Below, one piece after another: positions 10,799 through 61,820 of a stretch of 64,000 nt of DNA. A program made the position numbers and the translations under genes. The notes beneath the pieces are model-generated. The model was not told where the DNA came from, did not search any database, and saw nothing but the letters and a program-made list of their open reading frames with translations. The stretch is from positions 1-64,000 of the forward strand of contig JALSLV010000111.1 in NCBI GenBank assembly GCA_026988115.1, in the 5' to 3' direction. The stretch comes from Lysobacterales bacterium (GTDB lineage Bacteria; Pseudomonadota; Gammaproteobacteria; Xanthomonadales; Marinicellaceae). Each line of letters opens with the position of its first letter. Position 1 is the stretch's first letter.

Positions 10799-10926
10799 TA
10801 TTTTTTTTAATAGTTGTATATTTATTACAGTTAATTGTAACATTTTAAGTTTATAATAAGGAATTACTAATTCAATCTTTTGTTAAATTATGTTAGACTT
10901 ATTTAAGCTAAAAATGAGGATTTATA

Positions 10927-11136
10927 ATGAAGTATATATTAATGATTTTTCTAGGAATGACTATTTATTCAGGTACAAGTCAGTCAAGTGAAGTAAAAGA
11001 TGATATTGTCACTTTTGTTTGTAAAAGCAAGCAATCTGAAATATTCTGTATCAAAGCACCATTATCTGACAAAGATTTTTATTACAATTTATGTATGAAT
11101 AATAAGGCTGAAATGGCAGAGTACATGATTTTATAG
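10927..11136 (+). CDS. Small secreted protein, function unknown
   Basis: A 69-codon frame with a good ribosome binding site (ATGAGGA at 10914-10920), a signal peptide (MKYILMIFLGMTIYSGTSQSS) and a mature part of about 48 residues with three cysteines (VCKSKQ, FCIK, LCMN). It lies between srkA and the kinase gene and is transcribed away from srkA. I do not recognise a family. The signal peptide and ribosome binding site favour a real gene, but the short length keeps confidence moderate. Confidence 0.55.
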   Translation: MKYILMIFLGMTIYSGTSQSSEVKDDIVTFVCKSKQSEIFCIKAPLSDKDFYYNLCMNNKAEMAEYMIL

Positions 11137-11155
11137 AATCTCACGTTAGTTTAAA

Positions 11156-27158: not shown

Positions 27159-29453
27159 TTAATTTTGTTGTTGACTAACACCTTGTTGTAATTGGTGTAA
27201 AAATCGCTCGTCTTCTAGTGACCACCATTGGTTGGCAGTATTTTTGCATTCGTTGCCCAGTTCTAGGGCGAGTAAGTGGTTGTCAAGTGCGTGGTAGGCT
27301 TTGGCTTTTAAGAGTAAAAAAGGATAGGGAAGTGGGTCGTATTGATTTGACTCTTCAAGTATAGCTAGGGCTTTTTGGGCTTGCTTGTTTTGGATATAAT
27401 GTTTCGCTAAGGCGTTGTTAATTTCTATGATGGTTTCGCCATCTTCGGATTTTTTTGCCAGTTCTTTGCTGGATAAGAGTAAGGCGATGGCTTGTTCGTA
27501 TTTATTGGTGAGAAAATAGTATTGAGCGAGTTGTTTGTTTAAGCGTGGCTGCAATCTGACTTCACCAGTTTTATCAATGTGTTGTTGGACTTGCTCAAGA
27601 AGCGGTTCAATTTTTTCAATTTTATTTTGGTCTAAATACAAATCCAAAGCCAATAACTTGTTTTTTAGTAAGGCTCTTTTATTGCCAGAGGCTTGGGCAA
27701 GCTCTGCATGTTCTTGCAGGTAAAGTTCGGCACGTTTCCATTTTTTTAGGGCTCGGCTTATATCAACAGCGTATTGTTTGGCGATTTGCAACATGGCGTT
27801 GTAATTGATTTCGAGTGCAATGTCTTGCATTTTCTGATTCAGCTCCCACGCTTTATCAAAGTTGCCTTGAACCATAAGGACATAAATTAGTTCATTAATG
27901 GTTGCGCCTACACCGAGTTTATAGTTCAATGATTGATTAATTACAAGGGCTTGTTCGAGAAATTGTACCGATTTTTTGTACTCTGATTTATGTGTGCTAA
28001 TGCGCGCCAAAGTGATGTAAATTTTTGCTTCTCCCAATAAATCATCAAGTTTTGAAAACAGTGTTAATGATTTATTCGCCGCTTCTTGAGCTTCTTGAAG
28101 CTGCCCTAATTTTTGCAATAAACTGGCTTTTTTCTGATAAACATGGGCTAAAAGCTCAGGGTTTTCACTGTTTCTAAGGTTTTGCTCAAGTGTGTCTAAT
28201 TCGCTTAATGCTTGCTGGTATTGAGTTAAAATAGCGTAGGTAAAACTTAAATTATAGCGTACTTCATTTAAAGCCAGAAGGTTTTGGTTTTGGTATTTTT
28301 TGAGAATATTGAGGTATAACTCTTGTGCTTGTTGGTACTTTCCTTGTGTGTCATAGATGTCACCGCGAAGGGTGGCGATGGCAATTTCGAGTGCTGGTGT
28401 TAGCTGTGATTCTGATAAAGTATCAAGAATTGCCAAGGCTTTATCTTGCTTTCCTTGCGCATTTTTAGCGTGTGCTAATTGCAGGTGCGCTATTTTAAAA
28501 TTAGGGTCTTGTGTTAGGCATAATTGTAGGTATTGTTCGGCTTTATCAATCTCCCCTTTGTTCAGACTGGTTATGCCGCGAAGGTACAGTTCTATGACAT
28601 GAGAACTTTGTGGAAACAACGACTCCAATTGTTTTATATCGGTTGGATTGCCTGTTGTTTTTGCTAACCATTTACTTGCAGAGAGTAAGGCCCGCGCCAG
28701 ATTGTATTCGGTAAATGTTTGTTTTAAACGCAGGGTGTTTTTATCAAATACCTGCAATTCCACCGTGCTTAAATTATCCTTCTGAAAGACATGAATATTA
28801 ACCACTTTAAGATTTGGAGATAAGCGCCATTGGCTATTGATATATTGTTGTCTATCCAAATGTTCGGGTTTGATTTTGTAGTCTTTTAATTGCGCAATAT
28901 TGGCGTAATTAAAGAGTTGATTGACAAAAGAGCTGGGTGCTTGATTTAACCATTCTTTGTTTTCCAAGTGTGATGATTCGCCATCATTTGATGACATAAT
29001 AAGCAACAGCGATGGCTCTTGTGGCTCAGGTGATGAAGGCATATAAGTGAAGATAACCCCGAAAATAACAGTCATTAGCACAAGCAATAAAAGCACCTTG
29101 GGATGCAGTCGTCTTGTTTGTTTATGAACTTTAGTTTGTTGTTTTTGGCGTAGACTAACTTCTGGAACAAACATTAAGCCTTTGCCATAGACAGTCTTGA
29201 TGTAACTGTCTTTTTCAACAGAGCTTAAAATTTTGCGTAACTTAGAAATAATTTGGTCGATGGAATTTTCGGTGACGTGTTTACCAGCCCAAAGCGTGTC
29301 TAAAATGTCTTTTTTAGTAAACATTTTGTTTGGGTTTTGTAGCAAAAATAACAACAAATCATACTGCAATTTAGTGATGAGCAGTGGTTGATTGTTGGCA
29401 TAAAGCTCCTTAGTTTCGGTATCTAAGGTAAATTTTAAAAATGAATATTTCAT
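27159..29453 (-). CDS. ToxR/CadC-like membrane regulator with TPR domain (left copy)
   Basis: A 764-residue one-component regulator. Residues 1-97 form an OmpR/PhoB winged helix (LLITKLQYDLLLFLLQNPNKMFTKKDIL, VTENSIDQIISKLRKIL, IKTVYGKGLMF). One membrane helix follows (about 124-142, VLLLLVLMTVIFGVIFTYM), so the rest is periplasmic. Residues 280-760 hold many TPRs (LYLRGITSLNKGEIDKAEQYLQLCL and onwards). ToxR-type proteins bind DNA from the membrane; the TPR part would sense a ligand or partner. It is a paralogue of the 34177-36456 protein and divergent from the BspA-like gene. Its DNA fold fits the 11-bp repeats found upstream of that gene. Confidence 0.86.
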   Translation of the reverse strand: MKYSFLKFTLDTETKELYANNQPLLITKLQYDLLLFLLQNPNKMFTKKDILDTLWAGKHVTENSIDQIISKLRKILSSVEKDSYIKTVYGKGLMFVPEVSLRQKQQTKVHKQTRRLHPKVLLLLVLMTVIFGVIFTYMPSSPEPQEPSLLLIMSSNDGESSHLENKEWLNQAPSSFVNQLFNYANIAQLKDYKIKPEHLDRQQYINSQWRLSPNLKVVNIHVFQKDNLSTVELQVFDKNTLRLKQTFTEYNLARALLSASKWLAKTTGNPTDIKQLESLFPQSSHVIELYLRGITSLNKGEIDKAEQYLQLCLTQDPNFKIAHLQLAHAKNAQGKQDKALAILDTLSESQLTPALEIAIATLRGDIYDTQGKYQQAQELYLNILKKYQNQNLLALNEVRYNLSFTYAILTQYQQALSELDTLEQNLRNSENPELLAHVYQKKASLLQKLGQLQEAQEAANKSLTLFSKLDDLLGEAKIYITLARISTHKSEYKKSVQFLEQALVINQSLNYKLGVGATINELIYVLMVQGNFDKAWELNQKMQDIALEINYNAMLQIAKQYAVDISRALKKWKRAELYLQEHAELAQASGNKRALLKNKLLALDLYLDQNKIEKIEPLLEQVQQHIDKTGEVRLQPRLNKQLAQYYFLTNKYEQAIALLLSSKELAKKSEDGETIIEINNALAKHYIQNKQAQKALAILEESNQYDPLPYPFLLLKAKAYHALDNHLLALELGNECKNTANQWWSLEDERFLHQLQQGVSQQQN

Positions 29454-29735: not shown

Positions 29736-29767
29736 GCGTTGGTATTTTATCAATGATGGGAAAACCA

Positions 29768-32700
29768 ATGAATAATTATTTACACAAGTTTAGTTTACTG
29801 TTTTTACTTAGTTTTTTATGCCAAAACTCTATGGCAGCAGGAGCCGATGACTTTGTTATTCAAGTCAAAACTGACTTTCCAGGCACTTCGGCTAATAATG
29901 AATTTACCATTCAAACACTAGGTGCAGGTTACAACTACAACGTGGACTGTGACTTCGATGGTACTTTTGAGGCCACCGCCCAAACTGGAGATTATGTTTG
30001 TGTCTATGGCAGCCCAGGTATAAAAATTATTCGCATTGAGGAAAACAATGGCGATGGCACAGGATTTCCTCGGATTTATTACAACAACACAGGTGATCAT
30101 CGAAAGCTTACAGACATCATCCAATGGGGAACTGGTAAATGGACCAGCATGGGATCCGCCTTTAGAGGGGCGATAAACATGACGGTTTCTGCTGGAGATG
30201 TTCCAAATTTATCTAATGTTACTAATCTAGCCAGTATGTTTCGTTTTGCATTTCTTGCCAACCCTGATACGACAAACTGGGATGTTTCCAATGTCACCAC
30301 CATGCACAGCATGTTTCGCAGTGCCAGTGCAGCCAATCCCAATACCAGCAATTGGGACACTTCCAACGTTACGGTTATGACCGATATGTTTAGAAATGCC
30401 ACCGCTGCCAATCCCGATGTCTCTGGTTGGGATATTACTCAAGTCACCGATATGAGTTTGATGTTTGCCAATGTGACTTTGCCAACGGTAGATTACGATG
30501 CCATGTTAATCCACTTTGACAGTCAAAATGTCAAACCTTCTGTTGTTTTTGATGGTGGCAATAGCCAATACTGCAATATTCCAGCCCAAAATGCCAGAGC
30601 GAGTTTAATTGCCAATAAAAGTTGGAGCATCGTTGATGGCAATCAATGTGCCAATAGCGATCCATTAAATGATTTTGTATTTACTGTCACCACCAATTTC
30701 AGTGGTTCACCCACCGATGCCACTTTTACTATCCCTACCTTTGGTACAGGCTATAAATACAGTGTCGATTGCAATAATGATGGAACCCTAGAAGCTGTTG
30801 GTGTGACAACGAGTTATGTTTGTGATTATTCTGCACTGGGCGGAGTCGGAACTTACACCATAAGAATTAAGGATGCTTTGGGAGATAAAACAGGCTATCC
30901 TCGCTTCGATTTGTTTTATGCGAGCACTGAAAAGGACGAAGTCATTGATATTGCGCAATGGGGAACAGGTGTTTGGACAAGCATGGAGAGTGCCTTTAGA
31001 CAAGCCACCAACCTGCAAATCTCAGCAACAGATGCACCTGACTTATCGCAAGTAACCAGCTTGCAAAACACGTTTAGACTGGCACAGGCATTAACAACTG
31101 TTGGTAGCAATTGGGACACTTCTAATATTACCGACATGAGTGGAATGTTCTCTTATGCTTTTCAAGCACAACCACAAACCAGTAGTTGGGACACAAGCAA
31201 TGTCACGAATATGGCAGCCATGTTTGCAGAAGCTAATTCAGCACAACCCGACACAAGTAATTGGAACACCGCCAAGGTACAATTGATGACAGATATGTTT
31301 ACAAAAGCCTATTTAGCCAATCCAGATACCAGTGGCTGGGATATAAGTTTAGTCACCGACATGACTCAAATGTTTGCTGAGGTCACGCTGCCAACAGCCG
31401 ATTACGATGCTCTATTGAGTGGATTTAATGGTCAAGTCACACAATTTGGAGTAGTTTTTAGTGGCGGCAACTCAAAATATTGTGATGTTGCGGCTCATGA
31501 TGGGTTAATTAATACCCATGGCTGGGCCATTACTGATGGTGGTTTGGATCCTAATTGCCCTGGACCTGCTGATAACTTTGTTTTTGTGGTTAAAACCGAT
31601 AACTTAGGTAGCTCAAGTGATACCCAGTTCACCATTCCGACCAATGGAGCAGGCTACAATTATAATGTTGATTGCGATGATGACAATCCTGGGATTAATA
31701 CTGCCAGTGCCCAAACAGGCAATTACACCTGTAATTATGCCGTTGCAGGTACTTACACCATTAGAATTTCGGATAATGTCGGTGATAAGACAGGATTTCC
31801 ACGTATTTATTTTAATAACCAACTTGACAGACAAAAAATAATTGAACTCAAACAATGGGGCAAAGGAATTTGGACATCTATGGCTGCCGCCTTTTATGGT
31901 GCAGAGAATATGATTGTCTCAGCAACAGATGTCCCCAACTTATCTCAAGTAAGCAATGCTGTTAGCATGTTTCTATTTGCAAGTATTGCCAACCCCAATA
32001 CCACAAACTGGGATGTCTCAAACATTCAATACATGACATCTATGTTTAGAGATGCAACGGCTGCCAGCCCCGATACAAGCCAGTGGACAACCAACAGCCT
32101 TGCCCAAACAACCTTTATGTTTTTGGGTGCCACCTCAGCCAACCCAGATGTCAGCAACTGGAACACAAGCAATATTGTGGATATGCGTGGCATGTTTTCT
32201 GGAGCGACCTCAGCCAACCCAGATGTCAGCAACTGGAACACAAGCAATATTGTGGATATGCGTGGCATGTTTTCTGGAGCGACCTCAGCCACGCCTGATA
32301 TGAGTAATTGGGATATTACGGGCATTAGCGTTCCCAATTCAATGGAATCGATGTTTCAAGGCGTGACTCTGCCAACCGCACTATACGACGCTGCACTGGC
32401 TAATTTTGACTCACAAGTCACCGCTAATGGCATAGTATTTGATGGCGGAAATTCCCAATACTGCAATGTTGCCGCGCATGATGGTTTAATTAATACCCAT
32501 GGTTGGACCATTACTGATGGTGGTTTGGATCCTAATTGCCCTGGTCCTGCTGATAACTTTGTTTTTGTGGTTAAAACCGATAACTTAGGTAGCTCAAGTG
32601 ATGCCCAGTTCACCATTCCGACCAATGGAGTAGGCTACAATTACAATGTTGATTGCGATGATGACAATCCTGGGATTAACACTGCCAGTGCTCAAACAGG

Positions 32701-33661
32701 CAATTACACCTGCAATTATGCGTCTGCAGGCACTTATACCATTAGAATTTCGGATAATGTCGGTGATAAGACAGGATTTCCACGTATTTATTTTAATGCA
32801 GAATTTGATTACCGTAAAATAATAGAACTCAAACAATGGGGCAACGGAATTTGGACAAATATGGCATCAGCCTTTTATAATGCCAGCAACATGATTATCA
32901 CAGCAACGGATTTTCCTGATTTATCTCAAGTGAGCAATGCCATTAACATGTTTTCTGGAGCAAGCCTTGCCAATCCCAATACCACAAACTGGGATGTTTC
33001 AAACATTCAATTCATGCAATCCATGTTTAGAGATGCAGTCGTTGCCAATCCCGATACAAGCCAATGGAACACCAGCAGTTTGACCAATACCTTTTCCATG
33101 TTTAATGGTGCAATTATCGCCAACCCAAATGTGCAAAGCTGGGATGTTAGTAATGTAACAAACATGAGTTTAATGTTTCAGGGCGTAACCTTGCCTATAT
33201 CAAGTTACGATGCATTGCTCAATCACTTTAATTCTCAAGCCGTTATTTCGGGCATTGCCTTCTCAGGTGGTAACTCAACCTATTGCAATGTTACCGCTCA
33301 TGATGGTTTAGAAAGCACCCATGGCTGGACTATTACTGATGGTGGACTTGACCCAAGTTGTCCTGGAGCAAGTGAAGATATATTTGCCGATGGCTTTGAG
33401 GCGGTGATTATTTTTAAAGCAGCGGTTAGTCAGTTTAATTACGATTTCTCTGAAGTATCGATAGATGACATGGATGAAACACCTTTATTGATTGCCAAAG
33501 GTTTAGACGATAATAAACAAAGCGTTATCCAAATTTACCTGCGCAATGACCTCGGGCAATTGCAAATTCGCATGGATAACTACGATAATAAAACACAATT
33601 GTGGAAAATAGGACAATGGCAGTCAATTGATAATAAGCAATTAACAACCATCAGTTGGTAA
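29768..33661 (+). CDS. BspA-like (DUF285) repeat surface protein with internal DGFE motif
   Basis: About 1297 residues. A signal peptide (MNNYLHKFSLLFLLSFLCQNSMAA) is followed by four modules of about 300 residues. Each opens with a strand block (DDFVIQVKT..., GYNYNVDCD) and continues with several 25-residue DUF285/BspA repeats of the type MFR-A--ANPDTSNWDVSNVT-M. Each ends with a block containing FDGGNSQYCN. BspA-like repeats are known from surface adhesins and leucine-rich-like folds. After module four comes IFADGFE, the motif that terminates four proteins of the neighbouring operon; here about 85 more residues follow (FNYDFSEVSIDDMDETP...). The start at 29768 is preferred because it gives a clean signal peptide and lies 26 bases after the predicted transcript start. 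ATG at 29753 is an alternative. Confidence 0.85.
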   Translation: MNNYLHKFSLLFLLSFLCQNSMAAGADDFVIQVKTDFPGTSANNEFTIQTLGAGYNYNVDCDFDGTFEATAQTGDYVCVYGSPGIKIIRIEENNGDGTGFPRIYYNNTGDHRKLTDIIQWGTGKWTSMGSAFRGAINMTVSAGDVPNLSNVTNLASMFRFAFLANPDTTNWDVSNVTTMHSMFRSASAANPNTSNWDTSNVTVMTDMFRNATAANPDVSGWDITQVTDMSLMFANVTLPTVDYDAMLIHFDSQNVKPSVVFDGGNSQYCNIPAQNARASLIANKSWSIVDGNQCANSDPLNDFVFTVTTNFSGSPTDATFTIPTFGTGYKYSVDCNNDGTLEAVGVTTSYVCDYSALGGVGTYTIRIKDALGDKTGYPRFDLFYASTEKDEVIDIAQWGTGVWTSMESAFRQATNLQISATDAPDLSQVTSLQNTFRLAQALTTVGSNWDTSNITDMSGMFSYAFQAQPQTSSWDTSNVTNMAAMFAEANSAQPDTSNWNTAKVQLMTDMFTKAYLANPDTSGWDISLVTDMTQMFAEVTLPTADYDALLSGFNGQVTQFGVVFSGGNSKYCDVAAHDGLINTHGWAITDGGLDPNCPGPADNFVFVVKTDNLGSSSDTQFTIPTNGAGYNYNVDCDDDNPGINTASAQTGNYTCNYAVAGTYTIRISDNVGDKTGFPRIYFNNQLDRQKIIELKQWGKGIWTSMAAAFYGAENMIVSATDVPNLSQVSNAVSMFLFASIANPNTTNWDVSNIQYMTSMFRDATAASPDTSQWTTNSLAQTTFMFLGATSANPDVSNWNTSNIVDMRGMFSGATSANPDVSNWNTSNIVDMRGMFSGATSATPDMSNWDITGISVPNSMESMFQGVTLPTALYDAALANFDSQVTANGIVFDGGNSQYCNVAAHDGLINTHGWTITDGGLDPNCPGPADNFVFVVKTDNLGSSSDAQFTIPTNGVGYNYNVDCDDDNPGINTASAQTGNYTCNYASAGTYTIRISDNVGDKTGFPRIYFNAEFDYRKIIELKQWGNGIWTNMASAFYNASNMIITATDFPDLSQVSNAINMFSGASLANPNTTNWDVSNIQFMQSMFRDAVVANPDTSQWNTSSLTNTFSMFNGAIIANPNVQSWDVSNVTNMSLMFQGVTLPISSYDALLNHFNSQAVISGIAFSGGNSTYCNVTAHDGLESTHGWTITDGGLDPSCPGASEDIFADGFEAVIIFKAAVSQFNYDFSEVSIDDMDETPLLIAKGLDDNKQSVIQIYLRNDLGQLQIRMDNYDNKTQLWKIGQWQSIDNKQLTTISW
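31496..32797 (+). repeat. Long near-identical direct repeats between modules three and four of the BspA-like gene
   Basis: About 320 bases at 31496-31816 recur with few changes at 32477-32797, an exact offset of 981 bases (327 codons). This marks a recent in-frame module duplication. Between them lies an exact 75-bp tandem repeat (two units within about 32138-32287, encoding SANPDVSNWNTSNIVDMRGM), i.e. one 25-residue DUF285 unit gained by slippage. Confidence 0.85.
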
Positions 33662-34176: not shown

Positions 34177-36456
34177 ATGATGTACCAAATTGATAAAATT
34201 TCTTACGATTATTCACAAGGGTTGATTCTTAAAAATGGTGAGGAAATAAAGCTAACCAATAAGCAAAAAGATTTGCTTAACTATTTTATTGATAACCCTA
34301 AAAAGATACTTTCCAAACAAAAAATTATGGAAGAAGTTTGGGGGCGGATTATTACGGAAAATTCAGTCGATCAATTTATCTCCACTTTGCGTGGATACCT
34401 AGAAGAAAACCCATCAAAACCCGAAATACTGGTGACTCATTTTGGAAAGGGCATGAGTTTTGAGGGTGCGATTAAAAAGGTTAAACCTCTCCAGACACCT
34501 AAGGCTGCAGTTAATCAACTAATCTTACTGTTTTTGAGTGTTAGTATTATTGTTGTGAGCTATTTTTTCTTCAGTTCTGTATTCGTTGAGGATAAAAAAT
34601 CACCAATCGATTCGGCTCAAGCTTCTCCTAACCGCATGTTATTTATTACCGATATTAATAACTCGACTAATGATTACAATCAAAACTCAGCAACTCAACA
34701 GCTTATTTCTGAACTTTTAAGGCTTTCAAATGGTGCGGATGTTGTCGATACCAGCCGATTTATGGGAACAGAAAAGAAGCAAGAGCTGACCAAACAAATG
34801 TGGCAATTAAACCCCAATTTAAAATTAGTCAAAACGCAATTGCAACTAAGTGATAAAGAATACGTCTTAAGCATTGAAGTGAGTAATGGGCTCAATCCTG
34901 CAAAAAAGCAACATTTCCGCTCGCCCGATATCCACAAAATAGTTTTGGATGCAGCCAATTACTTAGCCAAAGAAAATTCACAAAACGGTGCTTTTGATAC
35001 GGATTTATTAACTCTGTTACCAGAAGATAAGTATCTAGTAGAAACGTATATGCGAGGATTTTCCTTTACCAATAAAGGAGAAACAGCAAAAGCAATCGAG
35101 TACTTTAATTTATGTTTACAAGAAAAGCCAGACTTTCATCTGGCTCGTCTAAGTTTAGCAAAGGCCTTAAGAAGACACAGTCAATACGATGAGAGTATTG
35201 CTCAGTTGGAAGCATTGCGATCCGTTAACTTGAATGAAAGTTTAACTTTGGTTGTGGACAGTGAGTTTGCAGCTGTTGAGCTGCTGCGAGGTCATTTGAG
35301 CGAAGCCAAGTCCTTGTTTGAGAAAATCATCAGTAATTATCCTTTGACCTATCGGCTTTATCCCGCTTACATGAATTTGGCAGCAACGGATTATAGGATG
35401 GGAAATTATGATCAGGCACTCGAAAGATTAAAGGTGTTGGAAAAAACCATTAATGAGAAAACACATCCCGAAGATGCGGCATTGATTTTTAATACCATGA
35501 GTGCGGTTTATTTGTATCAAAAACAGTTAGATGAGTCTTTCAAATACATTAACAAAAGTTATGAACTTTTTAAAAAAATAGGTGATTTGCAAAGAGAAGG
35601 CCTGTCTTTAGCTCGGTTATCTATTTATTATTTCATGATTGGTGATTTGCAAAAGGCGGAAATTCACATAAGGCAGTCCTATGATATTGCTAACCAATTG
35701 GGTAATAAACGCAGCCAACAAGCCGCTTTAAATCACATGGTAGAATTTAAACTTATTGAGGGTAAGTTTGATGAAGCATCCAAACTTAATGTGGACTTAA
35801 CGCATGTTGCCAACGAAATACATTCTCTGCCAGGTCAGACTCGAGCGGCACAATGGGATAGCTTAATCGCGATAGAAAAAAAGCAATTCGATAAGGCACA
35901 ACGTTCTATTTCACAACACTGGCAATTAGCACAAACAAGTCAGTCCAAACCATCAATCAACACTAACCTGATTTTACAATTGCAATTAGCTCTTGCACAA
36001 AAAAACTGGAAAATGTCCGATGATTTAATTCAAAAGTTGTTGAAGTTAGAAGATAAAGATTTTTTGACCTCCAGTTTTATTCCCTTATACATTGAATATT
36101 TATCAAGGCAGGGATTTAAGACTCGGTTATTTAATGTAATAGAAGAACAGAAAAAAAAGACTGATGTATATAAAGATAAAATTCTACTACAAAAGCTCGC
36201 CATCAGTCTTGCTGAAGAACACCTAAAAGATAACCCGAAAAAATCCATTGAGCTATTAAAAAACCTTATGGTTAATGACCTCATTAAATACCCTTATTAT
36301 TCGGTGCTGGCAGAAGGGTATTACCAAACGGGTGATTTTATGAGTGCCTTAGTACAAATGGAAAAAGCCAAAAAAAGTTATAACCAAAGATGGAATCAAG
36401 AATTACAAGAGTTGTACAATAAAATAAGGATAGCGGTAAAAGCGCAACATAATTAA
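34177..36456 (+). CDS. ToxR/CadC-like membrane regulator with TPR domain (right copy)
   Basis: A 759-residue paralogue of the 27159-29453 protein with the same plan. An N-terminal OmpR/PhoB winged helix (about 1-97: LTNKQKDLLNYFIDNPKKILSKQKIM, ENSVDQFISTLRGYL, THFGKGMSF) is followed by one membrane helix (about 113-134) and a long periplasmic TPR domain (from about 280, YMRGFSFTNKGETAKAIEYFNLCL). The shared TPR entry motif shows true paralogy. It lies between the BspA-like gene and the convergent secreted-protein operon, so the two regulators bracket the adhesin. No phosphorylation receiver domain is present. No 11-bp repeats were seen before its own start. Confidence 0.86.
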   Translation: MMYQIDKISYDYSQGLILKNGEEIKLTNKQKDLLNYFIDNPKKILSKQKIMEEVWGRIITENSVDQFISTLRGYLEENPSKPEILVTHFGKGMSFEGAIKKVKPLQTPKAAVNQLILLFLSVSIIVVSYFFFSSVFVEDKKSPIDSAQASPNRMLFITDINNSTNDYNQNSATQQLISELLRLSNGADVVDTSRFMGTEKKQELTKQMWQLNPNLKLVKTQLQLSDKEYVLSIEVSNGLNPAKKQHFRSPDIHKIVLDAANYLAKENSQNGAFDTDLLTLLPEDKYLVETYMRGFSFTNKGETAKAIEYFNLCLQEKPDFHLARLSLAKALRRHSQYDESIAQLEALRSVNLNESLTLVVDSEFAAVELLRGHLSEAKSLFEKIISNYPLTYRLYPAYMNLAATDYRMGNYDQALERLKVLEKTINEKTHPEDAALIFNTMSAVYLYQKQLDESFKYINKSYELFKKIGDLQREGLSLARLSIYYFMIGDLQKAEIHIRQSYDIANQLGNKRSQQAALNHMVEFKLIEGKFDEASKLNVDLTHVANEIHSLPGQTRAAQWDSLIAIEKKQFDKAQRSISQHWQLAQTSQSKPSINTNLILQLQLALAQKNWKMSDDLIQKLLKLEDKDFLTSSFIPLYIEYLSRQGFKTRLFNVIEEQKKKTDVYKDKILLQKLAISLAEEHLKDNPKKSIELLKNLMVNDLIKYPYYSVLAEGYYQTGDFMSALVQMEKAKKSYNQRWNQELQELYNKIRIAVKAQHN

Positions 36457-36522: not shown

Positions 36523-38835
36523 CTATTCAAACCCACTAATAAAGAAAAAATCAGATTTTGGAATAAGCACAAAATCTTTATTTATCGCATCTTGTTGTGC
36601 CGCCAAAACAATTGGTTGTGCATCTTGGTAGTTGCAACTGCCCGAATAACAGGGTTTGTCGCCATAAACTGCGTCAATTAACACTTCAAAACTTGTGGTT
36701 GTTAAATAATAAGTATCAGCAGGAAGCCCTGCGGTTTTGTAATATCCCAATTCATCGGTTGTGTAGCTGCCATAATATATCCCTGCTTGGTTGTAAACAT
36801 TAACTTGCACCTGCCCAATGGGTGCTGCCAAAACGTCATCGATTATTTTTCCGCTGATACTAGCTCCTTTTGCCAGTTGGATATTTAATGGTGCACTCAC
36901 GGTTTTATTAGCAGCAAGTACGATGGGCGTACCAGAGATAATGTCACAGCCATTGGCTGGGCAAATCATGCTATCGTACAAAATATCAAGCCAACCATTG
37001 CCTGCAGTCGTCCTGTAACCTAAAAATGGTAATCGGTGACCGTTGTTGGTCACTGCATAATACGTTCCTGCGGGCAAACCATTGACTGTGAAGCTTCCTA
37101 TGGGAGCAGTGCTGCCGTCACTGGTGGTTGCCCAATTGGCAAATTTAACCGTTCCATCTCCCATATCTTTGTAAACCAAAACATGCACATCAGGAATAGG
37201 ATTGCCCGTACCCACTTCGGTAAGTGTTCCTGAAAAGGATAGCCCCGTATCCAAAACGAAATCAATATTGGGCGTCACATTGTCAGCCGTTACATTGACA
37301 TCGGCTGTGGTTAAATCGCACGCCAAACCCGAACAAATAACGTCATTGTATTTTTCATTTACATAGGGTTGGGTCAAAACTCCCACAAAAAGATTGCCGG
37401 TGCGCACGGCATAATCGCCAGGTGGTAAAGCTCTTGCCGACAGATATGTCCCATCTTGTTTCACGTATGCCCCACCTACCACTACATTATTGGCATCGAT
37501 AAATTGCACCTGCACATTAGCATCAGTAATAGGCAAACCCGTTGCTGCACTGGTAATTGTTCCTGAAATTTTACCGCCTTTTTCTAGCAAGAAATCAATA
37601 TTGGGCGTGTCTTGTTTAGCTCTAACGATAACAGGGCTTCCAAGAGAACGTGTGCAACCAGACCAATAACAAGGCGTGTTGTTATACACTTCTCGTCTAT
37701 AGAAATCTCTTCCAAGATCTCCGCCTTGTACATAATAATTGCCAGGCAATAAACCACCAAAAATATAATCTCCCGTTGCAGACGGGTCGTAGTTGCTTCC
37801 CAAAACATAGCGTGTGAAGAGTAAATTATTCAATTCATCAAAAACCAAGAAGTAGCCAAACTCAGCCATGGGGTTGCCAGTAACAGCATCCACTATTTTG
37901 CCAGATATTGAGCCACCATAGTTGAGATTAAAGTTGATATTGCTGATGCTATTGTAGGTATCAATAATCAAATCATCCCCTTGTCCTTGTATTGCCAAAT
38001 CGGAACAATCATTGCACTGAATATTGGGATACAGTTGCGGGATATGGAAGTTTGTAGCACTTTGTGTACTGGCTTCTAGGTAAATTTTGTAAGTGCCATT
38101 GGGGATCGCATCAATGGTATAAGCTCCTGTAACGGAATCAAAAATAGCGGTATAAGATTGATAATCTGAACCATCCACATTATATAAGATTGCTATTAAT
38201 GTTGTTACCCCAACACTACTATCAGCATCCTTGATATAACCCGATACTTTCCCTCCCAGACGTGTTGAAATATCAATTCCTGTTACTGCTTCATCAACCC
38301 CAACTGTGATATAGTGGTCAGAAGCTACAGAGCCAAGATAACATCCTGAACACAATTGCGGACCTCCACTGGTTGCATTTGCCCAAATATATCTTAGATA
38401 ACCCCCGCCTCTTGAATAAAGAACATAATCACCTGCTGTTAAATTCGTGAAGGTGTAATTTCCAGAGGCATCGGTTTCAACATTGGCAATAGGTGCACCC
38501 AAAGACAATGCATTGACCAATCGAATCTTTTGAAACTCTATTGGGTCGCCATTTTCATCGGTAACTTGACCACTGATACTGCCCATTCCTGCGTTGATGC
38601 TTTTAACATTTTTAACAGCACTTGAATTAAATGCCTCTTGTTGTAATTGTTGATTTTTTAAATCAAATTGTTGTTGAGTGATTAGGCCTTCATCTAATAA
38701 CTCATCTAACATTTTAATGTCAACAATTGCTGCATTGGCTTGATAAAAAGAAAACAACATCAATAATCCTGATAGTATCAGTAGAGTGTGTGTTTTTATT
38801 TTAATCTTCTTTTTTTGGTTGCTATTTATTGTCAT
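36523..38835 (-). CDS. Secreted protein with carboxypeptidase-regulatory-like repeats and FE C-terminal tail
   Basis: A 770-residue exported protein. A long basic signal (MTINSNQKKKIKIKTHTLLI...) ends near NAA. A short helical segment follows (MLDELLDEGLITQQQFDLKNQQL, SHOCT-like), then six or so carboxypeptidase-regulatory/Cna-B-like beta-sandwich repeats, recognised by SISGQVTDENGDPI, KVSGYIKDAD, SISGKIVDAVTGNPM, KISGTITSAATGLPI, FSGTLTEVGTGNPIP and SISGKIIDDVLAAPI. It ends FFFISGFE. The start is supported by AGGAGA. It is the last gene of the five-gene minus-strand operon, 26 bases after the 41555-38862 gene. The role is probably structural or adhesive on the surface. Confidence 0.85.
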   Translation of the reverse strand: MTINSNQKKKIKIKTHTLLILSGLLMLFSFYQANAAIVDIKMLDELLDEGLITQQQFDLKNQQLQQEAFNSSAVKNVKSINAGMGSISGQVTDENGDPIEFQKIRLVNALSLGAPIANVETDASGNYTFTNLTAGDYVLYSRGGGYLRYIWANATSGGPQLCSGCYLGSVASDHYITVGVDEAVTGIDISTRLGGKVSGYIKDADSSVGVTTLIAILYNVDGSDYQSYTAIFDSVTGAYTIDAIPNGTYKIYLEASTQSATNFHIPQLYPNIQCNDCSDLAIQGQGDDLIIDTYNSISNINFNLNYGGSISGKIVDAVTGNPMAEFGYFLVFDELNNLLFTRYVLGSNYDPSATGDYIFGGLLPGNYYVQGGDLGRDFYRREVYNNTPCYWSGCTRSLGSPVIVRAKQDTPNIDFLLEKGGKISGTITSAATGLPITDANVQVQFIDANNVVVGGAYVKQDGTYLSARALPPGDYAVRTGNLFVGVLTQPYVNEKYNDVICSGLACDLTTADVNVTADNVTPNIDFVLDTGLSFSGTLTEVGTGNPIPDVHVLVYKDMGDGTVKFANWATTSDGSTAPIGSFTVNGLPAGTYYAVTNNGHRLPFLGYRTTAGNGWLDILYDSMICPANGCDIISGTPIVLAANKTVSAPLNIQLAKGASISGKIIDDVLAAPIGQVQVNVYNQAGIYYGSYTTDELGYYKTAGLPADTYYLTTTSFEVLIDAVYGDKPCYSGSCNYQDAQPIVLAAQQDAINKDFVLIPKSDFFFISGFE

Positions 38836-38861
38836 GTTATTTTCTCCTATTGTTTTTTAAC

Positions 38862-41555
38862 TTATTCAAATCCATCTACAAACATTATTTCAGGTTGAAT
38901 TAAAATAGCTACCCCATCTCCTGCCGCTCCTGCACTATTGTTGCTGGTTTGCGGATCAAATTCATCAGAATAAGTGGTGGCTACTAATCCAAAAGGTCCT
39001 TCTGAGTCAATTCTATAAACGAGTGTAATATTTTCAACTGAAAATGGCTCAAATTCACTGATAATACAAGTGACAGTAGAACATAAGTTACCAACTGCAA
39101 AACTAAGAGTTAAGTTTTGCGTAAATGCCCTAATATCAAAATTGTGTGCTAAATTGGGTCCACTATTTCTTGAATGCAATTGATACTCCACATCTTGTCC
39201 AACATAATATGGACCTGGTGTAATTAGGTTCAAAGAAACAGCCACATCAGCAGATGCTACAATAGCGCTAGAGAATGTTGCCAAATTGTCTGTAATATTT
39301 GTATCCGATTGTCCTGAAGTGACTAATATTGAATGAGTGAAAGTTTCACTTGATGAGGCAATAATTGGAGCAAAGTACTTTGCTGTAATGTGTCTTGTTG
39401 TGTTTGCTGCCATATCGGGTAACAGGCAGGGATAACCAATACTACAAAAATCTATTTCAATAAATTCTGCTCCACTAAATTCTGGCCATAACTTAATGTT
39501 GGAAGCTGGCTCATTACCAGTACTTATGGTTATATCAAACTCTAGATATTGATAAGAATGATAAGGTGGGGCTTGTAATAAAGTCATACTCACAGATATA
39601 TCAGTATCGGTAACTGCTCCATTATTTAATTGATTATCAAGATTGTTGTCTAAATTAATATCTGTTTGGGCTGAACTTACCGTTCCTTGTGCATCAAATT
39701 GAGATGCAGTGATTTGTGTTGAAACTGTTATTACTTTTGATGTGCTATTTCCTAGTGCATTAAAGAAACAATTTTGACCTGCAAAAGAGTCACAACCTGT
39801 AAAGTTGATATTCGTTAAGTTGGTTGGATTAAAATGAAAACCAACACTTGTTGCTGTAGCAGAACCATAGTTAGTAACTGTTGCAAGGTATTTAACTGTT
39901 TGCCCTATAAAATAAGGTGGGAATGTGATGGGGTGCATTTCAATGCCCAAGTCAGCTCCTGCAGTTAGTGGAGAGAATTCATAAAAGTCAGTGTTGTTGC
40001 TTGTTATATTGTCGGTAAAAGTAGAATCGCTTGTTGAGTTAATGTCTAATGTTATCGAGAAATTTGATTGTGAGCCAGATAAATTTAAGACAATAGGTAT
40101 TTCTATTTCTTGTAATGGCTGTAAAACAGGGATTATACAAGGAAATGAGCTACAAAATAATGAATTGGTTGAATTAAAAAAAGCATTGTTAAGGGCTAAG
40201 TCAACTTTGACATCATCTGCCACTCGCAAGCTATTATTCGTAATAATCGCCCTGTAAATAATTTGTTGGCCTTTAACATAAGGTGGAGATTGTTCAATAC
40301 TGTGGGTTATTTCTAAGTCAACAAACCCAGTTGCTTCATAGGCTCCAACATCACAAGATCCATCTCGGTCCTCACCTCTTTGGTCCGTTGGCAAACAAAA
40401 ACTTGAGTCTCCAGCATTAATTGCAAGAGAGTCATGTCGTAGAGCCACTGTTTCAGTAAACCCGCCATTGTCTGCTAGAAATAATGGTTCATCTGGACCA
40501 TTTAAATTGATGAAGCCACCTCCTACACATGGGTGACTACTAACACTCATATTTTGAGATGCAAATATTATATTATCGGTAACTTGACAATAGTGATTAA
40601 ATATAGAATTTGTAACTGACGTAATGATAGAACTATAATCGATTAATATTGGAGCTGTAGTGGTTAAATGATTAATTTCAACTGTTGAAAAGTTATAGAT
40701 ATTTAGCATCTTTTCAAATTGATTTACAGGTGACTTTACAATAGTTGAGTTTATTAATACCAAGTTAGATTGTTTTGCATATATGCCACTGTAAGTCTCT
40801 GTTATTAAACTTCTATCAAATATTAAACTTCCTGCATCAATATACATACTTGCACCTATATTATTGACAATCCATTCTTCATTACCTTCACCGCGATGCT
40901 TGCTTTTAGATTGATTTGATGCAAATTTGCTTTGGGTAATTTCAAGTGTTGAATTTTTAGCCCATATAGACCCTCCCTCAGAGTCAACCAATTCTATACG
41001 TGAATTACTATAATATGCAGTATTATTCAAAAATCTAGTATTGGTAGCGAATAGTCTAGCATTGGTCATATAAATTCCACCACCGCGTGATGTGTTACTT
41101 TGATTATTATCTATATATGAATCAAGCAGGGTAACTGTGGCATCAGTTATTTTCATCGCAGCACCACCACTAACAGCAATTACAGAGTTAAGCCAACCTT
41201 CTGTTAACTGTACCCGCTGTAATGTTAAATTCGTTTCATTTCCAGTAACTTTCATAATGCGGTGATTATCATTTCCCCTAATGGTGAGTAATCCTGTAGA
41301 AGTTTGAGTACTAATTGTCATATCTGAACTAATCGTAGGTAAAGTTGAGCTAAGGGTAATATCCCAAAAATCCGGAGATATCAAAAAATCATATCCAGAA
41401 CCCGCGGAGCAATTACCCCTGGGAGCATCTGCATTGGCGCTTCTTATTGCATCTTGCAAAGTACATCCATTGGGCCCAAAGTTAATGGTTGCAGCTTGGG
41501 TTGCTTGCAAAAAAAGCAATGCCAAAAAAGTTAATAAATATATTCTATTTTTCAT
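38862..41555 (-). CDS. Secreted beta-helix protein with DUF11-like repeats and FE C-terminal tail
   Basis: An 897-residue exported protein with signal MKNRIYLLTFLALLFLQATQA. Residues 25-400 look like a right-handed beta-helix of the polymorphic outer-membrane protein kind (short repeats, N-rich turns) and close with DQRGEDRDGSCDVGAYE, typical of choice-of-anchor Q proteins. Four DUF11/CARDB-like repeats follow, each opening D-x-x-[IV]-x-x---PPY-x-G-Q (for example DLEITHSIEQSPPYVKGQ). It ends IMFVDGFE. GGAGAAACATA precedes the ATG. It belongs to the secreted-protein operon; a surface or extracellular role is inferred. Confidence 0.85.
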   Translation of the reverse strand: MKNRIYLLTFLALLFLQATQAATINFGPNGCTLQDAIRSANADAPRGNCSAGSGYDFLISPDFWDITLSSTLPTISSDMTISTQTSTGLLTIRGNDNHRIMKVTGNETNLTLQRVQLTEGWLNSVIAVSGGAAMKITDATVTLLDSYIDNNQSNTSRGGGIYMTNARLFATNTRFLNNTAYYSNSRIELVDSEGGSIWAKNSTLEITQSKFASNQSKSKHRGEGNEEWIVNNIGASMYIDAGSLIFDRSLITETYSGIYAKQSNLVLINSTIVKSPVNQFEKMLNIYNFSTVEINHLTTTAPILIDYSSIITSVTNSIFNHYCQVTDNIIFASQNMSVSSHPCVGGGFINLNGPDEPLFLADNGGFTETVALRHDSLAINAGDSSFCLPTDQRGEDRDGSCDVGAYEATGFVDLEITHSIEQSPPYVKGQQIIYRAIITNNSLRVADDVKVDLALNNAFFNSTNSLFCSSFPCIIPVLQPLQEIEIPIVLNLSGSQSNFSITLDINSTSDSTFTDNITSNNTDFYEFSPLTAGADLGIEMHPITFPPYFIGQTVKYLATVTNYGSATATSVGFHFNPTNLTNINFTGCDSFAGQNCFFNALGNSTSKVITVSTQITASQFDAQGTVSSAQTDINLDNNLDNQLNNGAVTDTDISVSMTLLQAPPYHSYQYLEFDITISTGNEPASNIKLWPEFSGAEFIEIDFCSIGYPCLLPDMAANTTRHITAKYFAPIIASSSETFTHSILVTSGQSDTNITDNLATFSSAIVASADVAVSLNLITPGPYYVGQDVEYQLHSRNSGPNLAHNFDIRAFTQNLTLSFAVGNLCSTVTCIISEFEPFSVENITLVYRIDSEGPFGLVATTYSDEFDPQTSNNSAGAAGDGVAILIQPEIMFVDGFE

Positions 41556-41576
41556 TATGTTTCTCCGTTAATTCAA

Positions 41577-43124
41577 CTATTCAAAGCTATTTTCAAAGAC
41601 AAAATCTGAGATATTATCAAACACATAGGCAGCTCCAGATTGTTCAGATAAATTATTATCAACACCATTGACTCCAGTACTACTGCCATCTTCATCTCTT
41701 GTTCCGACAACAACTGAATTATTTGACAACGAGACTGACAAGCCAAAGTAGTCAAAAGCTCCCGTGTTAAATGGTTTTATATAGGTTTGCTGTTGCCAAT
41801 TATTGTCTATAAAAGCAAAGACATAGGCAGCACCTGACTTGTTAGAAGAATTATTGTTTTCATCTCCATTAATGCCTGTAGCACTACTCCTCTCTCCACG
41901 TGCTGCGACTACGATCACCTTATTTCCAACACTAACTGCTGAGCCAAAAAAATCATTGTCGCCAGAATTAGAAGCTTTCAAATACGCTTGTTGACTCCAA
42001 GTATTGTTGATTGCTTTTGTAAATACATATACAGCTCCAGAAGCATTCAAAGAGTTGTCGCTTTCATCGCCATTAACACCCGTGGCATTACTATCCTCAT
42101 TAATCGAACCAACTACGATGGTATTATTAATTACTGCAACATCTTTCCCAAAAGAGTCATCACTCTGCGAATTTGATGATTTTAAATATTCCTTAAAAAC
42201 CCATGACCCTCCATCTAACTGATAAACATATACAGCTCCTGAGTTTACAGCCGAGTTATTATTTTGGTTGCCTCCTATGCCCTGGGCGATACTATCTTCC
42301 TTAAATGCACCAACAACAAGCAAACCATCAGATAGTGCCAACGAAGAACCAAATTCATCATCAATATCAGTATTTGATGCTTTAATATAGTGAATGAATT
42401 CCCAGTTTCCAGAAATTAACTGATATAGATATACAGCCCCAGAATTACTGGCATCATTGTTAATTTGATTGCCATCGACACCAGTGGAGTCACTGTCTTC
42501 GCCTGTTGCACTAATAGCAATATAGTTACCATAAATAGCTACGGAATCGCCAAAATTATCACTGTTATCAGTATTTGATGCTTTGATATAGGCCGTTTGC
42601 ATCCAATCCCCAGCTATTCTATTGAAAACATAAACTGCACCAGAGGCCGACGCCAGGTCGTTGTTTTGATCACCGTCCACCAAGGTTGCATTACTGTCTT
42701 CAAGTCTTGCACCTATTACCATAGTATCTTGATATATAGCAACCGAATAGCCAAACCAATCATTGGTAGATGAATTTGAAGATTTTATATAAGAGTCAAA
42801 AACCCAGTTCCCATCAATCCGATTATAGATATAAACCGCACCAGAATTAACGGCAGCATTGTTCAACTGATCACCATTTACACCTGAAGAATTGCTGTCT
42901 TCAAGGTGCCCTCCAACAACCAAAGTATCCCCGAAAATAGCTACATCATTACCAAAATAATCAATACTATCAGTATTCGATGCTTTGATATACGCTTGTT
43001 GAGAACTTATGGCTATTTGATTTTCTATGTTTTGCCATTGTGTTTCATCAATACTTATTGAATTAGGTGCTGCGTTGAGAGTTTGTCCTATTAATATGAT
43101 AACTATAAATAATAATTGTTTCAT
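41577..43124 (-). CDS. Secreted FG-GAP seven-bladed propeller protein with FE C-terminal tail
   Basis: About 515 residues. The signal is MKQLLFIVIILIGQTLNA, and AGGAA lies properly before the ATG at 43124; the longer frame to 43211 is not used. Seven repeats of about 65 residues have the pattern D-x-FG-x-x-V-(A/S)-V...SGA-VYV(F/Y) (for example SIDYFGNDVAI, TNDWFGYSVAI, AFDYFGLSVSL). This is the FG-GAP unit of integrin-alpha propellers, and each carries a D/N-rich loop (GVNGDQ-NN) that probably binds calcium. Seven units make one closed propeller. It ends FVFENSFE. It is the third gene of the operon. Confidence 0.88.
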   Translation of the reverse strand: MKQLLFIVIILIGQTLNAAPNSISIDETQWQNIENQIAISSQQAYIKASNTDSIDYFGNDVAIFGDTLVVGGHLEDSNSSGVNGDQLNNAAVNSGAVYIYNRIDGNWVFDSYIKSSNSSTNDWFGYSVAIYQDTMVIGARLEDSNATLVDGDQNNDLASASGAVYVFNRIAGDWMQTAYIKASNTDNSDNFGDSVAIYGNYIAISATGEDSDSTGVDGNQINNDASNSGAVYLYQLISGNWEFIHYIKASNTDIDDEFGSSLALSDGLLVVGAFKEDSIAQGIGGNQNNNSAVNSGAVYVYQLDGGSWVFKEYLKSSNSQSDDSFGKDVAVINNTIVVGSINEDSNATGVNGDESDNSLNASGAVYVFTKAINNTWSQQAYLKASNSGDNDFFGSAVSVGNKVIVVAARGERSSATGINGDENNNSSNKSGAAYVFAFIDNNWQQQTYIKPFNTGAFDYFGLSVSLSNNSVVVGTRDEDGSSTGVNGVDNNLSEQSGAAYVFDNISDFVFENSFE

Positions 43125-43321
43125 TTTTATTCCTGTTTTACGTGTGTTGTAAAATATAATTTTGGCATTATTCAAAACTACCAATAATGAGACTGGCAAT
43201 GATGAATACACTGCTCCTGTTGTGTGAAATTTTATAAATCATCTTCATCAATCATCTGTATCAATGAGGGTTTAGCCACAGGACTTAAGTATCTAGAGTT
43301 CTGTGGCAAAAAAATATCTCT

Positions 43322-44557
43322 TTAATATATTAAGACCATAATTGGACCACTTGAAACTGCACCAGTAGAGGAAGTAAAGCGGTTACATAATAATTTCTTA
43401 GAATTAGTTGCATGGAAGCCACAAGATACAGCTCTATTTCCAGTGGCAGATCTTGCTGAGGCTTGAAAATAGCGTGTATTAATATCTGTAGGAAATGTTA
43501 TGGTGCATGTTCCTGCTCCTGATGAAGATATAGTAATTCCACCTGGAGGGCTTGCTATTCCAGTATAAGAAGATAAAATACTAGGTGAAGAACCGCAACC
43601 CGCAGATACCATATATTTCATCATTCCATTGGCATTGGCAAAAGAGGTGACATTTGTACCAATGTAAGTTGTACTCGAGTTAACTCTGAATTTTGTATTA
43701 CCATCAATGCGAAATTGTACTGCATCCTGAGCTCCTTGTGCTTCAACTTGTAATTTCGCACCTGGAGTTACATTATCACCAATACCAACGTTACCATCAG
43801 CATTTATTGAAAATTTCTTTTGAAAGCCAACATCGACTCTAAAAGGATCATTCCCAATAACTGAATTCAGATGTAATCTTGCTTGAGGGTTAACAATTCT
43901 TATGCCAACATCGCCATTACTTTTGATACGAAACATCCCAACCCCTGTGCTGTCAGTGACTTCTACAGGGTCTATAGCGGCATTGCTTTGTTTTACTTGG
44001 AAACTAAAACCAGAATTGACTACACCAATCCCAACTTTTCCTATATAACTTATGCTCGATCCATTGTTTGTCCACGGTGTGTTAATACTTAAAGCACTAG
44101 CGACCCAATTGCTGCCATCAAACTGCAAGACATCATTGGCGTTAGCGCCATTAGGAGCAAGAAATTCTGCTTGCACAGCATAAGGGACAGCATTTATTCG
44201 TTGACGTGGTGGATTTAGGGATGTATAGGATGAAATGCCAATGATGCTAGCAGCTTGCCTAAATGAGACTGATAGCCACAAATCATCTCCATCAAAATTC
44301 ATATTGCCAAAATCCAACTCTTGAATCGTAAATAAACCATTAGTTACCTGAACATCAAACACTTCCAGTGCATTATTAACTTGACCTGTATTTTCTGGAT
44401 GAAGCCCGAAAAAGATATCATATAATCCATTAGCAGGAACACCGCCATCCGTTAAAAATCCTTGATAAGTAAATGCTGAACCTACTGGTGCTGCCTGACT
44501 TTTGATTGAGTAAAGTCCTAGACTTAGAATGAGTATTGCTATTATTAAGTTTTTCAT
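43322..44557 (-). CDS. Secreted tail-fibre-like protein
   Basis: A 411-residue exported protein with signal MKNLIIAILILSLGLYSIKSQA. The N-terminal domain AFTYQGFLTDGGVPANGLYDIFF, leading to PRQRINAVPYAVQAEF, is shared by many bacterial proteins with phage-tail-fibre-like shafts. Repeats such as GKVGIGVVNSG, GDVGIRIVNPQARLHLNS and GNVGIGDNVTPGAKLQVE follow; these trimeric beta-helix units are typical of tail fibres. The C-terminal domain has four Cys. It does not end with the FE tail of its neighbours. It starts 15 bases after the first gene of the operon. A trimeric surface fibre is likely. Confidence 0.8.
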   Translation of the reverse strand: MKNLIIAILILSLGLYSIKSQAAPVGSAFTYQGFLTDGGVPANGLYDIFFGLHPENTGQVNNALEVFDVQVTNGLFTIQELDFGNMNFDGDDLWLSVSFRQAASIIGISSYTSLNPPRQRINAVPYAVQAEFLAPNGANANDVLQFDGSNWVASALSINTPWTNNGSSISYIGKVGIGVVNSGFSFQVKQSNAAIDPVEVTDSTGVGMFRIKSNGDVGIRIVNPQARLHLNSVIGNDPFRVDVGFQKKFSINADGNVGIGDNVTPGAKLQVEAQGAQDAVQFRIDGNTKFRVNSSTTYIGTNVTSFANANGMMKYMVSAGCGSSPSILSSYTGIASPPGGITISSSGAGTCTITFPTDINTRYFQASARSATGNRAVSCGFHATNSKKLLCNRFTSSTGAVSSGPIMVLIY

Positions 44558-44572
44558 GTGATTCTCCCCTGG

Positions 44573-44872
44573 TTATTCAAAACCGTTTGTAAAAATTAGT
44601 TCATTAGGTGTGTTTGTTGATTGTGACCAAAACCCACCTGTTAAAGTGTAACTTCCTCCATTCATGGCATTACTGGCATCAACTTGCCCAATGCTGGAAG
44701 AAAGCTGATAGCTTCCTCCAGTCATTGTTGAGCCACCACTATTTATGGTGTACTTCTCTAGTGCAAATTGAGCAATAACTTGGCTGGATACCATGAATAG
44801 CACTAATAAGAGTATTTCTTTTTTAACCCTCATGCCTTTTTTTAAACTATCTGTGTAGTTTTGTTTTTTCAT
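44573..44872 (-). CDS. Small secreted protein with FE C-terminal tail, first gene of operon
   Basis: A 99-residue protein with a signal ending near VIAQ. The body is a short beta-rich block with an internal GGSYQLSSSIGQVDAS / GGSYTLTGGFWSQ repeat, a pattern seen at the ends of choice-of-anchor proteins. It ends LIFTNGFE. It looks like the common C-terminal module of larger proteins standing alone. GGGGAA lies 7 bases before the ATG at 44872; the inner ATG at 44833 is an alternative. The 11-bp repeat promoter lies upstream, so this gene leads the operon. Confidence 0.75.
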   Translation of the reverse strand: MKKQNYTDSLKKGMRVKKEILLLVLFMVSSQVIAQFALEKYTINSGGSTMTGGSYQLSSSIGQVDASNAMNGGSYTLTGGFWSQSTNTPNELIFTNGFE

Positions 44873-61091: not shown

Positions 61092-61820
61092 ATGAAAATA
61101 TGTACTGTATTGATGTTGATGATGACGGCTTCTTTTGTCATGGCAGATAGTAATCAAGATAAAGTGGCAGGCGTTTCTAATGGACAGGTTTTTATTGCAG
61201 GGGTTCATCAACCGCAAGCAACTGTGACCTTTGCAGCAAATGACTTTGAAGCAGGTTTTCCTGGAGCTGGTTGGACAGTTGTTCAATTAAATGTTGACGA
61301 AACATGGTCTGAAGAAACAACCAACCCTTTAACAGGAGCTTCAAGTGCCTCTGTTCTATTTGATGCTAATTTAAATAATCAAGATGAATGGTTGGTTTCA
61401 CCTGTTTTCCAAGCAGCATCAGGTCTTGTTGATGTTAATCATTTAGGTAGTATTTTTTGGTGTCGTGATAATAATGATAATTGCGACTTAGATGTAATGT
61501 TGGTTGTTGATGGAATAGGGGGTGGAGACGATGTTTTATTAAAGCGTTTAGATGATGATTGGCCTGCAAGCTTTACATTGACAGCTACTCAGATAGACTT
61601 TACTGCCAATATTCCAGGACCAGCTAGTAATTTGCAAATTGCATTTAGATTAACAGGAAATGATGGCGCACAAGTGTCTGTTGATGATATTGTTATTACA
61701 GGAGAAGAGCCTGCTGCAATATTAGCTCCACCAACACCAGTGCCAAGCTTAAGTTTATATGCTTTAATTTCTTTGTTCCTTGTGTTACTTGTGTTTGGGT
61801 ATAAAAGAAGCCGTGCTTAA
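61092..61820 (+). CDS. Secreted protein with a choice-of-anchor J-like domain and IPTL-CTERM-like sorting tail
   Basis: 242 residues. A signal (MKICTVLMLMMTASFVMA) precedes a beta-sandwich with DFEAGFPGAGWTVVQLN and DEWLVSPVFQ, as in cleaved-adhesin/choice-of-anchor J domains. A tripartite tail follows: P-rich motif PPTPVPSLSLYAL, hydrophobic helix ISLFLVLLVFGY and basic end KRSRA. This resembles IPTL-CTERM signals handled by an exosortase-like enzyme. No sorting enzyme is in the window. The protein is monocistronic, between a good promoter and a terminator. Confidence 0.8.
   Translation: MKICTVLMLMMTASFVMADSNQDKVAGVSNGQVFIAGVHQPQATVTFAANDFEAGFPGAGWTVVQLNVDETWSEETTNPLTGASSASVLFDANLNNQDEWLVSPVFQAASGLVDVNHLGSIFWCRDNNDNCDLDVMLVVDGIGGGDDVLLKRLDDDWPASFTLTATQIDFTANIPGPASNLQIAFRLTGNDGAQVSVDDIVITGEEPAAILAPPTPVPSLSLYALISLFLVLLVFGYKRSRA

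Follow-up and report, generated by a model that had tools for sequence, protein, structure and literature searches.

Why do secreted proteins with unrelated bodies, encoded side by side in a Lysobacterales bacterium, end in almost the same few residues? The question arises from a window of 64,000 nucleotides, contig 111 of a 3.51-Mb draft genome, in which positions 36523-44872 hold five genes in a single minus-strand run with small gaps between them. The tail lies at the end of four of the five encoded proteins and inside a BspA-like protein encoded nearby. The features are as follows.

36523-38835, minus strand: secreted protein with carboxypeptidase-regulatory-like (CarboxypepD_reg) repeats, 770 aa, C-terminus SDFFFISGFE
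36526-36552, minus strand: tag DFFFISGFE, final nine codons (from translation and the logo for this genome)
38862-41555, minus strand: secreted choice-of-anchor Q and DUF11 protein, 897 aa, C-terminus EIMFVDGFE
38865-38891, minus strand: tag EIMFVDGFE, final nine codons (from translation)
41577-43211, minus strand: FG-GAP repeat protein, 544 aa, C-terminus DFVFENSFE
41580-41606, minus strand: tag DFVFENSFE, final nine codons (from translation)
43322-44557, minus strand: secreted protein without the tag, 411 aa, C-terminus GPIMVLIY, member of the same run
44573-44872, minus strand: small secreted beta protein, 99 aa, C-terminus ELIFTNGFE
44576-44602, minus strand: tag ELIFTNGFE, final nine codons (from translation)
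29753-33661, plus strand: BspA-like (DUF285) secreted protein, 1302 aa, with an 86-residue extension after the tag
33380-33400, plus strand: internal tag IFADGFE of the BspA-like protein, 86 residues ahead of the stop

The original prediction gave the last seven residues of the four operon proteins as FFISGFE, MFVDGFE, VFENSFE and IFTNGFE, and translation reproduces these exactly. It described the remainder of the proteins as unrelated, which agrees with the CarboxypepD_reg, choice-of-anchor Q/DUF11, FG-GAP and small beta bodies found here. The internal IFADGFE of the BspA-like neighbor is also present, at a distance of 86 residues from the stop rather than the 85 first given.

The FG-GAP protein may have its real start at an internal ATG, yielding MKQLLFIVIILIGQTLNA. 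The untagged member of the run gave no match in a Pfam scan. Pfam-less untagged secreted proteins of this kind repeatedly adjoin tagged genes (43322-44557, minus strand, and loci L034, L045, L050 and L056), in many cases next to the tagged 99-residue beta protein or its paralogue. Paralogues of the beta protein in L045, L050 and L056 are likewise tagged, and an AlphaFold model of the 99-residue protein was uninformative (mean pLDDT 55.6). In two BspA-like proteins the tag is followed by a conserved extension of approximately 86-90 residues (33401-33661, plus strand; L049 2300-4555, plus strand); in their L049 paralogues, the protein stops with the tag or a single residue later.

The tail across the genome

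Pattern searches were carried out over the whole 3.51-Mb genome. A loose tail-plus-stop pattern (TTYNNNNNNRRYTTYGARTRR) returned 63 matches versus 7 with the reversed pattern, and a strict DNA pattern, FxNGFE or FxDGFE followed by a stop, returned 34 matches versus 0 reversed. This whole-genome check, suggested with the original prediction, revealed far more carriers than had been claimed. By translation, at least 39 distinct proteins end in F..[GSDN]FE immediately before the stop, where the protein-level statistics refer to 0.89 Mb of stretches picked partly around matches. The consensus is close to [DE]-x-[ILVMF]-F-x-[ND]-[GS]-F-E, or roughly D-L-I-F-x-N-G-F-E. In a logo of the 39 tails, for which the search itself fixed F at -6 and -2 and E at -1, position -7 is always one of [ILVMF] (39/39), position -4 is [ND] in 33, position -3 is [GS] in 36 and position -9 is D or E in 28. 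Because of this acidic residue at -9, we take the motif to be about nine residues long, not seven. The seven-residue terminal motif first described was too short in its extent. It is also not always strictly terminal: 39 proteins of this genome end exactly on it, but tails in relatives often run on for one to four residues, and many such tails are found in two genomes (G091 and G145), for instance GFED-stop.

The tagged proteins range from approximately 80 to 1200 residues in length and include M14 carboxypeptidases, a relative of the ExeM/NucH nucleases, DUF285, DUF5666 and HZS-alpha-like proteins, together with proteins containing choice-of-anchor Q and J domains. The tag is mostly located at the exact C-terminal end in this genome. 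Internal copies are rare, being found in the two BspA-like proteins, just past the signal peptide in one protein (L037) and in the middle of another (L193).

All 39 tails are distinct as DNA sequences. Comparison of the 60 residues upstream of the tag gave a median local score of 22, relative to 21 for shuffled sequences, and so mostly chance-level likeness, with clear paralogues accounting for 16 of the 741 pairs. Since every tail DNA differs and the upstream sequences are mostly dissimilar, duplication of a DNA segment was ruled out as the origin of the tails. The same observations bear on whether the tail sorts anything at all, as it might be a common structural ending or a habit of the lineage, spread through descent and recombination. 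Paralogous carriers (the choice-of-anchor Q, DUF285 and 99-residue families) do inherit the tail by descent. We nevertheless consider this explanation highly improbable in view of the 39 DNA versions on mostly dissimilar upstream sequences, the enrichment of the tail on exported proteins and the absence of the entire set from whole clades, described below.

Export signals on the tagged proteins

Among proteins from the 0.89 Mb of partly match-centered stretches, a permissive home-made rule detected an export signal in 36 of 42 tagged and 249 of 628 untagged proteins (p = 4e-9), and a strict home-made rule in 26 of 42 tagged and 147 of 637 untagged proteins (p = 2.6e-7). Approximately ten of the 16 tagged proteins that fail the strict rule show plain signal peptides by eye. 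Frequency on secreted proteins had been named at the outset as a point on which the prediction could fail, and the enrichment was seen under both rules. Most tagged proteins have a Sec signal peptide at the N-terminus, and one has a Tat signal (RRKFLKG, L055). The carriers are exported and, judging by their enzymes, are probably also folded and extracellular.

Folded extracellular proteins are the cargo of type II secretion systems (T2SSs; PMC12369372). The Sec or Tat signal that is required of T2SS substrates is present on most of the tagged proteins, by the home-made rules and by eye, and the carriers resemble T2SS cargo in these signals, in the carboxypeptidases and in the ExeM/NucH nuclease relative.

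Distribution of the tag

The strict tag count ranged from 0 to 56 per genome over 150 genomes of the order (Lysobacterales/Xanthomonadales), with near-zero control matches. Matches in the low-count genomes of the order were mostly real tails on long proteins, and the matches inspected from other orders fell in tiny ORFs. In class and phylum samples outside the order, the tag was at control level. Within the samples covered, the tag occurs solely in the Lysobacterales/Xanthomonadales, and its occurrence inside the order is patchy.

Neighboring genes and named tag families

Scans of the tagged proteins with NCBIfam and Pfam found no model covering the tail, in keeping with the original remark that no named family was known for it. 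An open-access literature search, with subscription journals mostly outside its scope, found no description of the tail in print. The further statement that the tail is not a sortase or exosortase signal also stands, as the tail has neither a helix nor a basic end, and this genome lacks the exosortase (PF09721), as do G025 and G030, which are among the heaviest tag users. The tag-bearing genomes without it include G000, G009, G010, G025 and G030, and it is found in untagged genomes. Treated as a patchy control gene, the exosortase was present in 14 of 27 tag-positive panel genomes and in 6 of 19 that are tag-poor or tag-negative. Its occurrence does not follow the tag, and it was rejected as a partner.

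The genes adjoining tagged genes include no recurrent enzyme or transporter, the recurrent ones being regulators only. Winged-helix (Trans_reg_C)-TPR proteins are repeatedly encoded next to tagged genes (27159-29453, minus strand; 34177-36456, plus strand; L034, L047, L048, L051 and L126) and may regulate the tagged cargo. In several members of the order, the vicinity of tagged genes repeatedly contains a sigma-factor-like (ECF sigma) gene adjacent to one for a Ser/Thr kinase-TPR protein, the sites being 11156-14573 (minus strand), L033, L065, L113, L125 and L126. Elsewhere in the window, a choice-of-anchor J protein (61092-61820, plus strand) has a C-terminal membrane helix and basic tail (VPSLSLYALISLFLVLLVFGYKRSRA) resembling the PEP/IPTL type, in a genome without PF09721.

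A T2SS with a PDZ-bearing GspC

Phylogenetic profiling had been recommended as a means of finding a partner for the tail, and the best co-occurring candidate is a secretion system, a T2SS whose GspC has a PDZ domain. A secretin search of 46 genomes revealed that nearly all tag-positive genomes have two T2SSs and that tag-negative genomes mostly have one or none, with the exception of genus g11. The system of interest, T2SS-A, consists of gspC-gspD-gspE-gspF, which in several families lies between rhlB and ftsE-ftsX, and of gspL-M-N at another location. The genome under study has two secretins and the gspC, D, E, F, L, M and N genes of T2SS-A; pseudopilin genes of T2SS-A were not located in it. 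A complete T2SS was recognized in the genome, where the Xps-type cluster is present with pseudopilins. At one locus (L131), an alpha/beta hydrolase gene (10622-11542, plus strand) lies between T2SS-A gspC and gspD; it is absent from the other T2SS-A loci listed.

GspC-A contains T2SSC and PDZ domains. The structural model has one membrane helix, an HR domain and a PDZ domain, and resembles the solved structures of GspC HR and EpsC PDZ. The second T2SS is Xps-like, and the protein at its GspC position gave no PDZ match; XpsC of Xanthomonas is likewise without a PDZ domain (PMC11981180). The scores from a GspC search of the 150 genomes were clearly two-peaked. A single-protein scan with GspC returned four near relatives, three labeled Lysobacterales and one Alcanivoracaceae.

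When the 150 genomes of the order were divided by GspC-A, two or more tags were found in 53 of the 76 genomes with it versus 3 of the 74 without (Fisher p = 1.7e-18). Because the genomes are related, we also permuted genera within families, and 4 of 1,000,000 permutations reached the observed value (4e-6). In family f11, GspC-A occurs in 4 of 27 genomes and real tags in precisely those 4, and in family f2 the single GspC-A genome of 28 is the single tagged one; G011 of family f1 has neither a T2SS nor the tag. The presence of any T2SS was rejected as too broad a partner, as genomes with only an Xps-type system are without tags.

There are exceptions in both directions. T2SS-A is present in genus g11 of family f9, where the genomes examined have 0-2 tails, each with one to three extra residues, and in G082, which has zero strict tags. 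Tags occur without T2SS-A in G097, which is 98% complete and looks like a real exception, and in four genomes of family f8, each with one real tag. G111 is fragmented and lacks any full-length secretin, and completeness is 90% for G056; these two exceptions may be assembly gaps. So the tag largely requires T2SS-A, and T2SS-A does not require many tags. T2SSs of other orders that have a PDZ-bearing GspC lack such a tag.

A possible substrate tag for T2SS-A

Taking sequence and co-occurrence together, we lean cautiously towards the tail being a short C-terminal substrate tag for T2SS-A that lacks a transmembrane segment, possibly bound by the PDZ domain of GspC. Tagged proteins would be delivered into the periplasm by Sec or Tat, where folding would leave the tail exposed. 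T2SS-A would then read the tail and move the protein out through GspD, with the Xps-type T2SS handling untagged substrates. The reader would be the PDZ domain of GspC, which is the most speculative step; alternatively, the periplasmic domains of GspD or another component could perform this role. The canonical ligands of PDZ domains are extreme C termini (PMC12369372), and we propose the GspC PDZ domain for this reason and because it separates GspC-A from XpsC. The one to four extra residues and the internal copies fit classical carboxylate binding poorly, and this weakens the PDZ step. The fuller proposal, in which a linear signal of about nine residues directs dozens of folded proteins with unrelated bodies to a single dedicated T2SS via the GspC PDZ domain, is tentative and in our judgment doubtful.

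The link between tag and T2SS-A is correlative, and a like pattern would arise from any unlinked gene with losses in matching clades. An unlinked factor that reads the tag (a protease, a transpeptidase or another transporter) and shares the T2SS-A clades by chance would accommodate G097 and the several f8 genomes that are tagged without T2SS-A, as well as the few tags of genus g11. It is, however, unlikely, since T2SS-A already accounts for most of the pattern in several families and the obvious candidate, the exosortase, misfits the profile.

Choice-of-anchor bodies in other bacteria carry anchoring tails, and choice-of-anchor Q and J domains are found among the present carriers. The tail might serve, once export is complete, to retain or anchor proteins at the surface via an outer-membrane or matrix partner, the carriers being merely substrates of T2SS-A, from which the same co-occurrence is expected. 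This is rather improbable given that the tail has no membrane helix, cysteine or processing motif, that no partner gene adjoins the tagged genes and that the carriers include enzymes that are usually released. Of the two functions first envisaged, export or anchoring, the former agrees with the export-signal enrichment and the T2SS co-occurrence, and the latter has no evidence of its own. The suggestion that a secretion system might read the tail is supported by the profiling, from which we infer the function.

A study from 2025 described T2SSs as having no linear universal signal (PMC12369372), and substrate choice by these systems is an open question. A short tail that is shared by dozens of unrelated exported proteins and kept or lost with one T2SS makes a test direct. 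If the tail proves to be a linear T2SS signal, it would be of a sort that such machines were said to lack, and under the fuller proposal it would be their first portable address label. The cargo of T2SS-A could then be listed from sequence and, if transferable, the tail could provide a small secretion tag for laboratory use.

Comparison with known sorting systems

PEP-CTERM/exosortase is likewise a C-terminal sorting tag that was recognized through phylogenetic profiling (PMC1569441). PEP-CTERM has a membrane helix, a basic tail and a dedicated exosortase, whereas the present tails end in GFE with neither a helix nor a basic cluster. GlyGly-CTERM/rhombosortase is similar in that the tag is found on many unrelated secreted bodies, including ExeM-type nucleases, in genomes with a T2SS (PMC3237569, PMC13393428). 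A rhomboid protease cleaves the GlyGly-CTERM, which is made up of a Gly-rich motif, a membrane helix and a basic end; the present tails have none of those three features. The authors of the rhombosortase study (2011) found T2SS genes high in their profiling, with no particular T2SS subclass tied to the tag (PMC3237569), whereas here one subclass is singled out. MYXO-CTERM/myxosortase is also lineage-restricted and C-terminal, and is carried by dozens of proteins that exit via a T2SS (PMC11980579). It is a surface anchor in which an invariant cysteine is combined with a membrane helix and an arginine-rich end, in contrast to the present tail, which has no cysteine, helix or basic end. T2SS secretion of TraA persists after removal of its MYXO-CTERM (PMC11980579).

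The LPXTG-like motif, membrane helix and basic end of the LPXTG/sortase system were all missing from the present tails. The T9SS C-terminal domain (TIGR04183) of Bacteroidota is a folded domain of approximately 70-80 residues that serves as an outer-membrane passage signal on diverse secreted proteins. It shares with the present tail a C-terminal position on diverse secreted proteins and differs in being a folded domain; the tagged proteins scanned gave no above-cut-off match to TIGR04183 or a related T9SS domain. As a predicted C-terminal sorting tag, the tail is unlike the described GlyGly-, MYXO- and PEP-CTERM tags, all of which undergo cleavage by a membrane protease, in having neither a helix nor a basic end. 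In VesB-EpsC and PelI-OutC, folded Ig/Fn3 domains and loops carry the information, and the substrates have no linear motif in common. These pairs resemble the system proposed here in that a substrate element is recognized by GspC, partly via its PDZ domain (PMC12369372, PMC7949064), and the PDZ domain of EpsC is required for the secretion of VesB (PMC12369372).
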